A DNA stretch of 64,000 nt from a bacterium (GCA_026129405.1 JAHCID010000001.1:124001-188000); one strand, 5' to 3'; positions 52,901 through 57,058 are shown, counted from the first letter of the stretch. A program made the numbers and translations. Notes: generated by a model not told the origin, from the letters alone.

Positions 52901-52908
52901 GGCGGCCG
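52901..52908. repeat. Left copy of 8-bp target-site duplication
   Basis: GGCGGCCG immediately precedes the left inverted repeat and is repeated exactly at 55571-55578 after the right one. Eight bases fits IS1-family insertion. Confidence 0.9.
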
Positions 52909-52926
52909 GGTAGTGGGTCAGTTTGA
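52909..52926 (+). repeat. Left terminal inverted repeat of IS1-family transposon
   Basis: GGTAGTGGGTCAGTTTGA; perfect inverted match over 18 bases to 55553-55570, with partial similarity continuing inward (TCCCCGTC against ATCCGTC). Confidence 0.92.
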
Positions 52927-52946
52927 TCCCCGTCTGACGGCTACTA

Positions 52947-53225
52947 CTACTTCTTCTTCTTGCGCGGGCGCCCCGGGTTGCGATGCGGCACCTCTGCCCT
53001 AGCGGCCGACACTCCAATCTCGATGGCATCGAAGGCGCCTGCGGCGCCGTCCTTCTTGCCCTGCTCGTAAACCGCTTCCAGAACCTGGAGTAGCTTCACG
53101 CCATGGAACAGGGGCATGTCGTCCATGATCTCTTTGAGTGCGGCGGATATTCGGGGGCTGGCGTAGACCTTAATCTGCTCGCCGGAATTCAGTTCGATCG
53201 CGGTCGTGATGTACTTCGCTGCCAT
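52947..53225 (-). CDS. Transposon passenger: small protein with basic AT-hook-like tail
   Basis: 92 residues from the ATG at 53225, after an AGGAGGCGGAAG ribosome site; an upstream ATG would add ten basic residues. 'KYITTAIELNSGEQIKVYASPRISAALKEIMDDMPLF' and a predicted helix 'GVKLLQVLEAVYEQGKKDG' precede the tail 'NPGRPRKKKK', which looks like an AT-hook. A DNA-binding accessory or regulatory protein is the likely role. It runs opposite to the other passengers, with 39 bp between divergent starts, and ends 20 bp from the left repeat. Family unknown to me. Confidence 0.7.
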   Translation of the reverse strand: MAAKYITTAIELNSGEQIKVYASPRISAALKEIMDDMPLFHGVKLLQVLEAVYEQGKKDGAAGAFDAIEIGVSAARAEVPHRNPGRPRKKKK

Positions 53226-53264
53226 CGGCTTCCGCCTCCTTGAAGCACGTGGCATAGTTCAGCC

Positions 53265-53603
53265 ATGCACAAGCGGTCAAGCACGGTCACGGCGCTGCTC
53301 GCAGGCTGGCTTTTGATGTCGCCGCCGCCGCAGAAGCGCGAGGGCGCGGCGCCGGGACTCGGCAGCTACGGGCAGGATCTGAGCGTGCCCGTCTCAAAAT
53401 GGAAGCAGGAGGGCGCGTTCGACACGGCCGCCGAGTGCGAAGCGGCGATCGTCCGAACGATGGACGATCTCGGGAAGGCGCAAGGGAGTGATGCGATGCC
53501 GGTCCACGTCGACCTCCAGGCGCGGATGCAGGCCGCCGCCTCGGGTGCCCGGTGCGTTCCGGCAGATCACATCTACCCGGCGGCCGTGGGGGAGCAGCCG
53601 TGA
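53265..53603 (+). CDS. Transposon passenger: small exported-type protein
   Basis: 112 residues. A short hydrophobic N-terminus ('TVTALLAGWLLMSPP') may be a signal peptide. 'VSKWKQEGAFDTAAECEAAI' and 'GARCVPADHIYPA' match a pattern I know in small secreted proteins (W...FD-A-CE ... RCV-AD), likely with one disulfide. Its stop overlaps the GTG of the next gene (GTGA), so the two are coupled. No clear ribosome site. Function unknown. Confidence 0.65.
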   Translation: MHKRSSTVTALLAGWLLMSPPPQKREGAAPGLGSYGQDLSVPVSKWKQEGAFDTAAECEAAIVRTMDDLGKAQGSDAMPVHVDLQARMQAAASGARCVPADHIYPAAVGEQP

Positions 53604-53860
53604 AGGCCAAGAAGCCCGCACGCCGGCCGCGCGACCCGAACCAGCTCGCCAAGCTCATCGTCGACATGGCGACCGGCGAGGCCCCCCGCGACGACCTCGC
53701 GCCGCGCGACGACGGAAAGAACCCGGCCGCCGTCGCCCTCGGTCGACTGGGTGGGCTCAAGGGGGGAAAGGCCAGGGCGGCCAGCCTCAGCGCCAGGAAA
53801 CGCCGTGAAATAGCCAAGAAAGCCGCAAGTGCGCGCTGGCGAAAGCGCGGCGAAAAATAG
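53600..53860 (+). CDS. Transposon passenger: small basic conserved protein
   Basis: 86 residues from a GTG at 53600 overlapping the previous stop. The conserved part is 'RDPNQLAKLIVDMATGE', 'NPAAVALGRLGGLKGGKARA' and 'LSARKRREIAKKAASARW', with many Lys/Arg; this pattern is widespread in environmental bacteria, often near mobile genes, and suggests nucleic-acid binding. Cytoplasmic, unknown function. The stop codon abuts a strong hairpin. Confidence 0.75.
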   Translation: MKAKKPARRPRDPNQLAKLIVDMATGEAPRDDLAPRDDGKNPAAVALGRLGGLKGGKARAASLSARKRREIAKKAASARWRKRGEK

Positions 53861-53879
53861 CTAGTGGTCGGCCACTAGC
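53860..53879. terminator. Hairpin at the stop of the 86-residue gene
   Basis: GCTAGTGG-TCGG-CCACTAGC: perfect 8-bp stem with a stable TCGG-type tetraloop right at the stop codon. No U-run follows, so termination is possible but not sure; it separates the two passenger units. Confidence 0.5.
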
Positions 53880-53962
53880 CAGATCCGCCACGAACAGTGG
53901 CGCGACCGGCTTGCCGCGCAGTCGCTACTGTGGTTAATGGAGCCCAGTCTAGGGAGGCTGCG

Positions 53963-54472
53963 ATGCAGGACATTCGCATGGTGCTTAAGGCCAAGAGGGA
54001 TGCGCTTCAGCGTTTGCAGGCCGAGATCGATGTCCTTGAGCGTGCCCAAGCCCTCCTGGAGGGCGATAGCCTTGAGCCTTCCCCTCGACGCGTTGTTCTG
54101 ACCCCGGAGAAGCGCCTCACTGGCGCGCAGGCCAAGAATCACTTCGCGCCTACTTCGCAGGTCGGACTTGCGATCGCCGTACTGCGGGACGCAGGCAGCC
54201 CCCTTCACGTCACCGAGATCATGCGGCGTATCATGGACCGCGGTGGCTCCGTGAAGAAGGCGTCCCTCGTCGGCAGCCTCGCGCGACTTGTGAACGAGAA
54301 GCGCGTGTTTGTGCGTAAGCGGCCCAACGTTTTCGGGCTGTTGGAGTGGGCCGGCGGACCGCCGACTCTCCCGCTCCAGGTCGGAAACGGTGGCTCAAGT
54401 AGTGCCGAGCTTTCCCGTGGCAACCCGACGTCGGAGTCCACTCCCGGCGCCGGCTGGGCCGCTCGGCATTAG
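53963..54472 (+). CDS. Transposon passenger: coiled-coil plus HARE-HTH-like protein
   Basis: 169 residues from the ATG at 53963, after AGGGAGGC. N-terminal coiled coil ('MVLKAKRDALQRLQAEIDVLERAQALLEGD'), a linker, then a winged-helix domain 'VGLAIAVLRDAGSPLHVTEIMRRIMDRGGSVKKASLVGSLARLVNEKRVFVRKRPNVFGLLEW', which matches the HARE-HTH pattern (helices followed by a beta wing ending in the aromatic 'FGL'). HARE-HTH domains occur in RNA polymerase delta subunits and DNA-modification-linked proteins. The glycine/serine-rich tail is variable. It may regulate transposition or sense DNA modification; the role is not known. Confidence 0.72.
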   Translation: MQDIRMVLKAKRDALQRLQAEIDVLERAQALLEGDSLEPSPRRVVLTPEKRLTGAQAKNHFAPTSQVGLAIAVLRDAGSPLHVTEIMRRIMDRGGSVKKASLVGSLARLVNEKRVFVRKRPNVFGLLEWAGGPPTLPLQVGNGGSSSAELSRGNPTSESTPGAGWAARH

Positions 54473-54478
54473 CGGCGT

Positions 54479-54515
54479 AGGGACCGCCCGGGCGTCCAAA
54501 ACCCAGGCGGTCCCT
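54479..54515. terminator. Inverted repeat after the HARE-HTH gene
   Basis: AGGGACCGCC at 54479-54488 pairs perfectly with GGCGGTCCCT at 54506-54515 across a 17-nt loop, 7 bp after the stop. It could end the passenger transcript before the transposase. There is no U-tract. Confidence 0.5.
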
Positions 54516-54545
54516 GCGCTGCGCCCGTTGCGTCACTGACGCACG

Positions 54546-54569
54546 GATCTGCCTAACAGATGGCAGATC
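54546..54569. promoter_or_regulatory. Inverted repeat in the passenger-transposase gap
   Basis: GATCTGCC-N8-GGCAGATC, a perfect 8-bp arm pair, 122 bp before the transposase start. Possible operator or structural element. Confidence 0.4.
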
Positions 54570-54587
54570 TCAGGCTCAAGATCCACT

Positions 54588-54607
54588 TCGTGCGTGCGCA
54601 CGCACGA
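54588..54607. promoter_or_regulatory. 20-bp perfect palindrome upstream of transposase
   Basis: TCGTGCGTGCGCACGCACGA, symmetric over all 20 bases, 85 bp before the transposase ATG. It is likely an operator or a recombination-linked dyad. The gap 54473-54691 otherwise holds no gene. Confidence 0.5.
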
Positions 54608-54691
54608 CCAATGACACAGCCCATGACATAGGTTTTCGTAGGGAGCAGTTTCGGATTGACGTAGCATGATCGATCAAGCATAAGGGTCAAC

Positions 54692-55561
54692 ATGAATCGG
54701 CTGGACGGCAAGCGCCGCGCTCAAGTCGTGGCGGCTCTGGTGGAGGGCAACAGCATCCGGGCGACGTGCCGCATGACCGGCGTCGCCAAGGGCACCGTGC
54801 TCAAGCTGGTGGCCGACCTGGGCGAGGCGGCTCGCGAGTATCAGGACCGCACGCTGCGGAACCTGCCCTGCACGCGCATTCAGTGCGACGAGATCTGGAG
54901 CTTCTGCTACGCGAAGGACAAGAATCTTCCCGACTCCATGCGCCACAAGCCTGGCGTCGGCTCCATCTGGACGTGGACCGCGATCTGCGCCGACACCAAG
55001 CTCGTCCCGAGCTTCCACATCGGCACGCGCGACGCAGGTTGCGCCTGGGAGTTCATGAACGACCTGGCCGGCCGGCTCTGCAAGCGCATCCAGCTCACGA
55101 CCGATGGTCATCGGGCCTATCTCGATGCCGTCGACACGGCGATCGGGAACCACCAGATCGACTACGCCATGCTCATCAAGATCTACGGCGAGGCCCGTGC
55201 CGAGGAAGCGCGCTACAGCCCGCCGACGTGCATCGGGACCGACGTCAAGATCATCGCGGGGAACCCGGATCCGGCGCACATCAGCACGAGCTACGTCGAG
55301 CGCCAGAACCTGACGATGCGCATGAGCATCCGTCGCTTCACCCGCCTGACCAATGCGTTCTCCAAGAAGATCGAGAACCACGAGCACTCGGTCGCGCTGC
55401 ACTTCCTCCACTACAACTTCGCGCGCATCCACCAGTCGATCCGGTGCTCGCCTGCGATGGAGGCCGGCGTCACGGACCGGCTCTGGTCGGTCAAAGACAT
55501 CGTGGCGCTGCTTGAGGAGCGCGAGGCTCAGGTCCGCCCGACCGGGACGGATTCAAACTGA
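54692..55561 (+). CDS. IS1-family transposase (DDE)
   Basis: 289 residues, full length and uninterrupted. N-terminal helix-turn-helix (about 20-40, 'SIRATCRMTGVAKGTVLKLV'), then the catalytic triad Asp66 in 'QCDEIWSFC', Asp138 in 'LTTDGHRAYLDAV' and Glu203 in 'YVERQNLTMRMSIRRFTRLTNAFSKK'. This is the single-frame form of IS1 transposase (ISMhu11-like group) rather than the frameshifted insAB form. The stop codon at 55559-55561 lies inside the right inverted repeat. It should cut and join the 18-bp ends listed here. Confidence 0.93.
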   Translation: MNRLDGKRRAQVVAALVEGNSIRATCRMTGVAKGTVLKLVADLGEAAREYQDRTLRNLPCTRIQCDEIWSFCYAKDKNLPDSMRHKPGVGSIWTWTAICADTKLVPSFHIGTRDAGCAWEFMNDLAGRLCKRIQLTTDGHRAYLDAVDTAIGNHQIDYAMLIKIYGEARAEEARYSPPTCIGTDVKIIAGNPDPAHISTSYVERQNLTMRMSIRRFTRLTNAFSKKIENHEHSVALHFLHYNFARIHQSIRCSPAMEAGVTDRLWSVKDIVALLEEREAQVRPTGTDSN

Positions 55562-55570
55562 CCCACTACC
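55553..55570 (-). repeat. Right terminal inverted repeat of IS1-family transposon
   Basis: Reverse complement is GGTAGTGGGTCAGTTTGA, identical to the left end. It contains both the transposase stop and, on the other strand, the TAG now ending the thiolase gene. Confidence 0.92.
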
Positions 55571-56654
55571 GGCGGCCGAGCAGCGCCGCCGACGTCGGCT
55601 CGAGCAGCGACCCCGCCACCAACGCGACGCGGGCGCCGCGCACCGGGCGCGCCGCGTCCCCGCGCAGCTGGCGCACCGCCTCGACGACGTCGTTGATGCC
55701 GTCGAGGGCCGCCTCGCCGAGCTGCCCGCCGTGCGGGTTCACCCGCGGCCGTGCGAGGCCGCGCGCATCGGCTGGACGCCGACACAGGCCATAGGCGACG
55801 AGCCCGAGCGCGACCAGCCCCGCGGGATCGTCGTGCAGGCACGCGACGTCGACCGCCGCGGCCCGCAGGCCCGCCGCGCGGTACATCGCCTTCGCCGCGC
55901 GCGCGATCGCCGCCGGCGCGTCGGCGCGCACCCACTCGCCGGCGAACCGCGTCGCCGACGGCACCGCCGCCTGCATGGTCGCGAGCACGCGCACCGGGGC
56001 GTGACGCCCGCCCGCCGCCTCCAGCCGGGTCACCACGAAAGCGCAGCCGCCCACCGCCGGCTCGGCGCAGTCCGCGCGCCGCAGCGGCTCGGCGACGAAC
56101 GGGCTGGCGGCGTACGTGCGGGCGTCGAGCGCGCGCCGGACGATGGCCCGCGGGTTCTTCGCCGCCGCGGCGTGGGCCGCGCGGGTCGCGGCGGCGACGA
56201 CGCCCGCGTCGATCCCCCGCCGCCGCAGCACGAGGGCCGCCGCCTGCGCCGGCGTGACCAGCCCGAACGGCATCTGCATCTGCTCGACGCCGGGCAGCAG
56301 GGCCGGTACGGCCGCCGCCGCCCGCTCCGCGCCGTGGCGCGCATGGTAGGCGACGACGGTGCGCGCGAGCCCCTGCTCGACGGCCATCGCCGCCAGGCGC
56401 ACCAGCGCCGGCGCGCTCCCCGGCCCGTAGGGCACCGCCGCGTACCAGTCGAGGTTCGGCATGCCGAGAACGCCGGGCAGATCGAACTCCCACATCGCCT
56501 CGCGGTCGAAGCGCACCACGCCGTCGACGTCAGCCGGGCGCAGGCGGGCGTCGGCGAGCGCGCGCGCGATCGCCTGCGCGGCGAGCGCCGCCTCGGTCAC
56601 CCGACCGCGGCGCGCGAAGCGCGTCTGGCCGACGCCGGCGATGGCCGCCGTCAC
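55566..56654 (-). CDS. Thiolase-like acetyl-CoA acetyltransferase (SCP-x type), end altered by transposon
   Basis: 362 residues from a GTG at 56654 overlapping the DUF35 stop (GTGA). The start 'AIAGVGQTRFAR', the mid 'FGLVTPAQAAALVLRR' and 'RVNPHGGQLGEAALDGINDVVEAVRQLRG' are typical of the SCP2-thiolase-like group associated with DUF35 proteins. The family's usual nucleophile Cys is not evident near the N-terminal third, so its activity is uncertain. Its TAG stop (55566-55568) lies in the transposon repeat. Removing the element restores two more codons (Gly, Asp) and TGA at 52890-52892, so the insertion removed only two residues. Confidence 0.9.
   Translation of the reverse strand: MTAAIAGVGQTRFARRGRVTEAALAAQAIARALADARLRPADVDGVVRFDREAMWEFDLPGVLGMPNLDWYAAVPYGPGSAPALVRLAAMAVEQGLARTVVAYHARHGAERAAAAVPALLPGVEQMQMPFGLVTPAQAAALVLRRRGIDAGVVAAATRAAHAAAAKNPRAIVRRALDARTYAASPFVAEPLRRADCAEPAVGGCAFVVTRLEAAGGRHAPVRVLATMQAAVPSATRFAGEWVRADAPAAIARAAKAMYRAAGLRAAAVDVACLHDDPAGLVALGLVAYGLCRRPADARGLARPRVNPHGGQLGEAALDGINDVVEAVRQLRGDAARPVRGARVALVAGSLLEPTSAALLGRR
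55571..55578. repeat. Right copy of 8-bp target-site duplication
   Basis: GGCGGCCG, identical to 52901-52908, directly after the right inverted repeat. Confidence 0.9.
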
Positions 56655-57058
56655 GCCGGACGCCAGTGCGGCAGCGCGACGTCCTCGGCGACGTCCTCGA
56701 ACCGCACCGCGACACGCAGCCCGGCGCGGATCTTCGCCGGCTCGCAGTCGCGCAGCTGGCCGACCAGGAACGGCCCCTCCTCCAGCTCGACGAGGGCCAT
56801 CGCGTAGGGCACGCGCGCCGCGAACGCGGGCAGCGTCGGCGCGTGCACGATCGTCCACGAGTAGACCGTGCCGCGCCCCGCGGCGGTGAACCACGTGTGA
56901 CGCAGCGAGGCGCAGCGCGGGCAGGCGGGCCGCGGCGAGAAGCGCGCGGTGCCGCAGTCGTCGCAGCGCTGGAGGCGCAGCTCGTGGCGACGGCAGCCGT
57001 CCCAGAACTCCTGCGTGTCGGGATTGGGCTGGGGAAGCGGAGGGAGCACGTCGGCCAT
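56651..57058 (-). CDS. DUF35 zinc-ribbon/OB-fold protein
   Basis: 135 residues from the ATG at 57058. 'FWDGCRRHELRLQRCDDCGTARFSPRPACPRCASL' gives a rubredoxin-like zinc ribbon (CxxC...CxxC), followed by an OB-fold 'GTVYSWTIVHAPTLPAFAARVPYAMALVELEEGPFLVGQL'. Proteins of this family bind acyl-CoA and work in complex with thiolase-like partners, for example in steroid side-chain or HMG-CoA chemistry. It is sandwiched between two thiolase genes (5 bp and overlapping), which strongly supports a complex. Confidence 0.95.
   Translation of the reverse strand: MADVLPPLPQPNPDTQEFWDGCRRHELRLQRCDDCGTARFSPRPACPRCASLRHTWFTAAGRGTVYSWTIVHAPTLPAFAARVPYAMALVELEEGPFLVGQLRDCEPAKIRAGLRVAVRFEDVAEDVALPHWRPA

Follow-up and report, generated by a model that had tools for sequence, protein, structure and literature searches.

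A Probable IS1-Derived Carrier Transposon with a Small Basic Hallmark Protein and Swappable Cargo of Addiction and Defence Type

We analysed a window of 64,000 nucleotides of bacterial DNA, in which positions 52909-55570 are occupied by a transposon of 2662 bp. The features of the element and of its immediate borders are listed below.

52901-52908, no strand: left copy of the 8-bp target duplication GGCGGCCG, read off the sequence
52909-52926, plus strand: left terminal inverted repeat GGTAGTGGGTCAGTTTGA, pairing with the right end at 18/18 positions
52947-53255, minus strand: ORF A, 102 aa, orphan cargo with an AT-hook-like C-terminus (PGRPRKKKK)
53265-53603, plus strand: ORF B, 112 aa, orphan cargo with an N-terminal hydrophobic stretch; GTGA overlap with the ARW gene
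53600-53860, plus strand: ARW gene, small basic protein of 86 aa, hallmark of the family (profile match 2e-32)
53963-54472, plus strand: coiled-coil and HARE-HTH protein, 169 aa (from its ATG), variable-slot cargo (Pfam HARE-HTH)
54692-55561, plus strand: IS1-type DDE transposase, single ORF, 289 aa (D66, D138, E203; Pfam, NCBIfam and an alignment of 76 relatives)
55553-55570, minus strand: right terminal inverted repeat, containing the transposase stop codon
55571-55578, no strand: right copy of the 8-bp target duplication GGCGGCCG, read off the sequence

An earlier reading, made from the sequence alone, had described a perfect 18-bp inverted repeat at both ends, an exact 8-bp duplication at the flanks, an intact DDE transposase and four passenger genes, and all of these were borne out: the repeats pair at 18 of 18 positions, GGCGGCCG stands on both sides, the transposase is a full-length 289-aa ORF with a Pfam DDE_Tnp_IS1 match, and four passenger ORFs are present, of which the two small plus-strand ones overlap (GTGA, 53600-53603). 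No further site within three mismatches of the 18-bp repeat occurs in the window (0 expected by chance), and the element is present as a single copy in its own genome. The insertion point, read directly, lies at the extreme 3' end of a minus-strand gene (55566-56894), whose frame now stops within the repeat, at its TAG (GRR-stop); the joined flanks would give GRRGD-stop. The G+C content of the element is 64.8% compared with 73% for the window, which fits a recent acquisition.

The transposase scored 26.7 bits against Pfam DDE_Tnp_IS1, above the cut-off of 24.1, and 54.7 bits against the NCBIfam IS1 equivalog, below the cut-off of 100 and with a match covering only model positions 45-169 of 199. 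D66, D138 and E203 were invariant or nearly invariant in the alignment of 76 relatives. The ends have the GGnnnTG form and the inverted repeats of about 20 bp expected of IS1 (18/18 in GGTAGTGGGTCAGTTTGA), and the 8-bp duplication of the window copy falls within the 8-9 bp of that family. The ISXO2-type transposase domain of the IS1595 family gave 15.3 bits (E=0.014) against a cut-off of 75. Judged by these sequence features, the transposase is a divergent member of the IS1 family. The classical IS1 layout, with the insA/insB' programmed frameshift and the N-terminal zinc-finger part, is replaced here by a single ORF; the IS1 family accepts single-ORF members, and the element is thus outside classical IS1 and still inside the family. 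Some long single-ORF IS1 members (the ISMhu11 group) are listed in ISfinder. The element resembles the single-ORF members in its DDE transposase domain, GGnnnTG ends and 8-bp duplication, whereas it differs from IS1 in lacking the insA zinc-finger part and the two-ORF frameshift arrangement, in having a dedicated ARW gene, and in bearing cargo, with a length of 2-4 kb compared with about 0.7-1.2 kb in IS1. IS1 elements are taken to be short and without passengers, and the earlier premise that they normally carry only their transposase is inapplicable to this clade, in which the window copy measures 2662 bp, its relatives 1413-6694 bp, and all delimited relatives carry passengers. With an IS-type transposase and ends placed around genes unrelated to transposition, the element has the makeup of a transporter IS.

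As the sequence-only reading had proposed, the ends and the transposase were searched in related genomes. Loci were gathered by the transposase alone, and the only guide in placing the ends was their similarity to the reference repeat, the flanks being unused. This gave 77 relatives with both ends, and identical 8-bp flanks were observed in 65 of the 77, compared with 0 of 385 shifted-position controls. The fuller set comprises 78 elements (one redundant pair) with lengths of 1413-6694 bp (median 3.1 kb), and the ends of these 78 relatives are the same as, or nearly the same as, GGTAGTGGGTCAGTTTGA of the window. There were no bare IS copies among the 77 distinct elements, the minimum of non-transposase DNA being 678 bp; since every delimitable relative has some passenger genes, their presence is no accident. 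By record titles, the hosts belong to at least 14 named phyla and include one Woesearchaeota MAG, MAG binning errors being possible, and some copies lie on IMG/VR contigs. For more distant transposases (42-50% identity), including a second transposase in the same genome, ends were not found.

Evidence of movement came from an element on an Acidiphilium multivorum JZ-6 plasmid (L201, 3267-5900, duplication AAGCCGAG), which carries an ARW gene and a 318-aa protein, ClpP-like by sequence, in addition to the transposase. Its joined flanks, with one 8-bp copy, gave an unbroken 500-nt match in pACRY02 of A. cryptum JF-5 and in another A. multivorum plasmid, and this is thus a true empty site; the insertion truncates a RES-domain gene adjoining a MbcA/ParS/Xre antitoxin gene. 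The search for empty sites, also proposed earlier, therefore succeeded exactly for the Acidiphilium sister but not for the window copy, whose empty site was not found in 24 relatives; its left-flank gene occurs in two family members (76% and 70%), and the right flank does not lie beside it there. Two further elements, L170 and L171, consist of cargo between both ends, with 7-of-8 duplications and no transposase, which suggests that they moved in trans. In this they are like minimal insertion cassettes and non-autonomous IS derivatives; unlike minimal cassettes, they carry the ends of the family, and the DUF3800 gene of L171 belongs to a Pfam family of complete-element cargo.

The ARW profile matches 71 of the 78 elements, with a clear short ORF (E<1e-12) in 65 of the 78. 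The consensus consists of an N-terminal DxNxLAxxIVxxATG followed by KNPAAVALGRLGGLKGGKARAxKLSxxxRxEIAxKAAxARW. In 42 of 65 elements, no more than 90 bp separate the left end from the start of the gene; elsewhere, including in the window, other genes stand before it. An independent search found ARW in 20 of 395 genomes of the phylum: in one of these it is part of a 346-aa frame with a motif match only, and the remaining 19 of 19 also carry the transposase. Six transposase-positive genomes without ARW have transposases at most 50% identical to that of the window, and in a few cases ARW was matched on a contig where no transposase was detected, sometimes at the contig edge. The protein has no model in Pfam or NCBIfam. 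PHROG 2384 matches its motif only; both PHROG 2384 and P63C cargo proteins have this C-terminal motif of ARW as their N-terminal part. The predicted structure consists of short helices at low global confidence (pTM 0.36). One copy, on a Mesorhizobium plasmid, bears the annotation 'histone H1', a label that we take to rest on composition. A tblastn search of plasmids with the ARW consensus gave no match although plasmid copies exist, with the low-complexity filter or the threshold as the probable cause. Its position, basic character and strict association make it most likely that the ARW protein binds DNA and serves the backbone in an accessory or regulatory role.

The remaining cargo is exchangeable. 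At least 22 cargo-type changes were placed on the transposase tree, and strongly supported sister pairs (L048/L035 and L067/L069) carry unlike cargo. At the DNA level, elements L065, L066 and L071 are 82-86% identical in the transposase end and in the outermost 22 bp on the left, with no detectable DNA similarity in the stretch between; this pattern indicates that the transposase end is a stable backbone and that the left part is replaceable. Thus, the idea that the four-gene cargo is conserved as a unit did not stand, since only the ARW gene (53600-53860) is a hallmark and ORFs A and B have no counterparts among the fetched loci. Comparison of cargo order upheld the recurrence of ARW, whereas the rest proved exchangeable, with one clear counterpart of the HARE-HTH gene (L014).

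Cargo kinds were defined by all-against-all comparison and family scans. The slot kinds include HTH with M78 (ImmA/IrrE), P63C, XRE with a SecB-like partner, HigB and Fic, as well as SocA/Panacea, DUF3800, Bro-N, a dCTP-deaminase-like protein, a ClpP-like SDH protease and an aspartic-protease-like protein. Complete toxin-antitoxin (TA) or defence modules lie between the ends in three elements, as the pairs IetA and IetS in L008 and RmrA and RmrT in L065 and L123. Matches in the slot reached 3.6e-86 for IetA, 4.4e-30 for IetS, 1.7e-120 for RmrA, 8e-26 for RmrT, 3e-104 for SoFic, 3.6e-49 for PD-Lambda-2_B, 4.5e-9 for HigB and 3.2e-24 for SocA/Panacea. The P63C proteins were considered as PADLOC RmrA and rejected, RmrA being of the HTH and M78 type. 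Compared with a control set of 148 flanking ORFs of the same loci, the cargo matched 67 PADLOC models and the flanks 65, whereas the most frequent model occurred up to 10 times in cargo and at most 3 times in flanks; similar model totals with unequal recurrence demonstrate the recurrence of specific modules, not an overall enrichment of defence genes.

In the window copy, the HARE-HTH domain noted earlier in 53963-54472 was confirmed by Pfam (E=5.6e-8; 33.5 bits, cut-off 25.9). Its clear homologue in one other element (L014, 33% identity) adjoins a Bro-N protein, and four weaker matches in other genomes are at loci without recognisable ends. The protein has no match in the defence library (PADLOC), and a fold search with its model (pLDDT 58) gave no match at E<=0.001, the matches being winged-helix-like only. 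ORF A has no Pfam, PADLOC or PHROG match and no relative in the fetched loci or plasmids; ORF B has no convincing relative in the fetched loci and no PADLOC match. PADLOC thus identified no known TA or defence module in the window copy (HARE-HTH protein, ORFs A and B). ORF B begins with MHKRSS, and the 30 bp surrounding its start resemble the start of ARW elsewhere (MPKRSS; L014, L007); given this resemblance, ORF B may sit behind an old ARW promoter, behind which it may have been inserted. Several short elements (L012, L019, L034, L045 and L090) share the layout of an ARW gene, a small protein with a helical N-terminus and an HTH-like part, and the transposase. These small proteins were examined as HARE-HTH homologues, for which the profile comparison was not convincing.

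We consider it probable that this is an IS1-derived carrier transposon with the ARW hallmark protein and swappable cargo of addiction or defence type. Its backbone comprises the 18-bp ends on either side, an ARW gene, usually just inside the left end, and, often near the right end, a DDE transposase encoded by a single ORF. The transposase would act on both ends, and the whole unit would insert with an 8-bp stagger, as its anatomy and the empty site of a sister element indicate; the chemistry we infer from IS1. The ARW protein may assist as an accessory factor that binds DNA or act as the element's autoregulator. The modules in the slot, selfish or beneficial, would keep the element in the population, a role suggested by the known members and by the parallel proposal for Tn3-family transposons (PMC7157771). 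The slot may favour addiction and defence modules because these would offset the burden of the element or make its loss costly. In the window, the slot would contain two small orphan ORFs and the protein with the coiled coil and the HARE-HTH domain. The latter is most likely either a regulator that binds DNA or the non-toxic half of a module; we put forward the role of regulator only tentatively, and that of the non-toxic half of an addiction- or defence-type module is somewhat doubtful. A wider proposal appears to us evenly balanced, namely that a hitherto undescribed clade of compact IS1-derived transposons with a core of transposase and ARW crosses phyla and shuttles TA and anti-phage modules in its slot among bacteria (and an archaeal MAG), which would make unknown slot genes, such as the HARE-HTH gene, candidate defence or addiction genes.

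Several other explanations were weighed. If a bare IS1-type element had captured neighbouring genes once, its cargo would be meaningless, and the lack of relatives of ORFs A and B in the fetched loci and the single clear element-borne relative of the HARE-HTH protein would agree with such an event. However, passenger DNA was present in all 77 delimited relatives, with the same ARW gene in most; the hallmark gene largely refutes a one-off capture, which we regard as very improbable. Alternatively, the slot might be neutral and its cargo random mobile accessory genes, among which TA and defence genes are seen since they are common and well represented in libraries. The similar PADLOC totals in cargo and flanks, and the many cargo genes without assigned function, among them three of the four here, speak for this, but unrelated hosts repeatedly show the same modules (M78/PD-Lambda-2_B in 10, P63C in 9), metabolic or resistance genes are not prominent in the 25 commonest cargo families, and complete pairs (IetAS, RmrAT) are retained; a neutral slot is thus unlikely.

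Two further explanations concern the roles of the small proteins. ARW could be a cargo-side protein, for example, antitoxin-like or nucleoid-like, that shields the host from the slot: P63C cargo proteins and PHROG 2384 bear its C-terminal motif at their N-termini, and it accompanies every cargo kind. Yet it tracks the transposase and no single cargo type, and is retained where the slot has a complete module of two genes, as with RmrAT in L065, which leaves a cargo-side role distinctly unlikely. The sequence-only reading had suggested that the cargo may control transposition or sense the host; in relatives, TA or anti-phage modules often occupy the variable slot. We give about the same low credence to control of transposition, with the HARE-HTH and ARW proteins jointly regulating a self-regulated transposon that is no carrier. 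Several of the shortest elements, with their ARW gene, small protein with helical N-terminus and HTH-like part, and transposase, would suit that arrangement; however, homology of those small proteins with the HARE-HTH protein could not be demonstrated, and most elements, whose ends and duplications are nonetheless proper, lack them.

Compared with known systems, the proposed carrier transposon resembles the transporter IS (tIS), exemplified by the IS1595 family, in which an IS carries passenger genes (PMC3129680). It shares with tIS one transposase, short ends and passengers unrelated to transposition (PMC3129680), and differs from IS1595-family tIS in that the transposase belongs to another family, passengers are the rule, and a hallmark gene and an exchangeable slot are present. 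Tn3-family transposons carry TA passenger pairs, and, as here, these modules stand at a set place and are exchanged between relatives (PMC7157771). Unlike Tn3-family transposons, the elements described here are much smaller, have an IS1-type transposase and a wider range of cargo that extends to defence systems other than TA, IetAS among them, and show no resolvase or res site. Thus, IS with passengers and TA pairs in the Tn3 family were already known, whereas the widespread IS1-type carrier clade with ARW is poorly described; in the open literature, we found no account of IS1-type carriers that have this set of genes. If the proposal is true, an IS family usually seen as minimal would include a large clade that always carries cargo and acts as a small defence and addiction shuttle. 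The base-exact ends would then make the slot directly searchable for new TA and anti-phage genes, and a 2-kb element would allow a test of whether it is for the sake of their own stability that transposons retain such modules.

A further observation concerns the palindrome TTGACCGCTCAA, which is absent from the window. It was rejected as a universal operator and, on both counts, is not family-wide; with up to two mismatches, it was observed in 15 of 64 elements, compared with 0.3 expected.

In about 15 relatives (e.g., L019, L032, L088, and L059), the DNA 5' of the ARW gene, which encodes the small basic protein typical of this transposon family, holds the palindrome TTGACCGCTCAA (observed in 15 of 64 elements; 0.3 expected) and a -10-like box that lies a few bases 5' of the ARW ATG. 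Together, the palindrome and the box suggest that the ARW gene of one sublineage has an operator and that its transcript is leaderless. In the window element, the DNA 5' of the cargo gene ORF B is similar to the ARW promoter and start region of other elements (53235-53282), and the ORF B N-terminus reads MHKRSS, where the ARW gene of other elements starts MPKRSS. From this resemblance, the ancestral ARW promoter may now stand in front of ORF B.

Two cargo-only elements lacked both the transposase and the ARW gene:

L170, 842-2945: both ends, 7/8 duplication
L171, 801-1842: both ends, 7/8 duplication; cargo, a DUF3800-like gene

The GGKARA...ARW motif is C-terminal in the ARW protein and N-terminal in the P63C cargo proteins (L029, L040, L067, and L075), and a clear ARW gene was missing from some of these P63C-carrying elements.

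Outside the window, the genome of the window element carries one more IS1-type transposase gene (G000:C1:29754-30566; L004, L210); it is divergent (43%), and a search for its element ends found none. Family copies were also present on IMG/VR contigs classed as viral (L120, L121, L123, L125, L126, L128, L131, L132, and L136), making viral contigs a possible between-host route for the family.

The Acidiphilium plasmid element L201, a sister of the window element, was inserted in, and thereby shortened, a RES-domain gene whose partner is an MbcA/ParS/Xre antitoxin gene (loci L201 and NC_009468.1:83663-84184). The window element sits at the 3' terminus of the minus-strand gene 55566-56894 (site 55566-55578); the TAG stop of this gene now comes from the element's right repeat, and thus the loss is limited to about two codons (GD).
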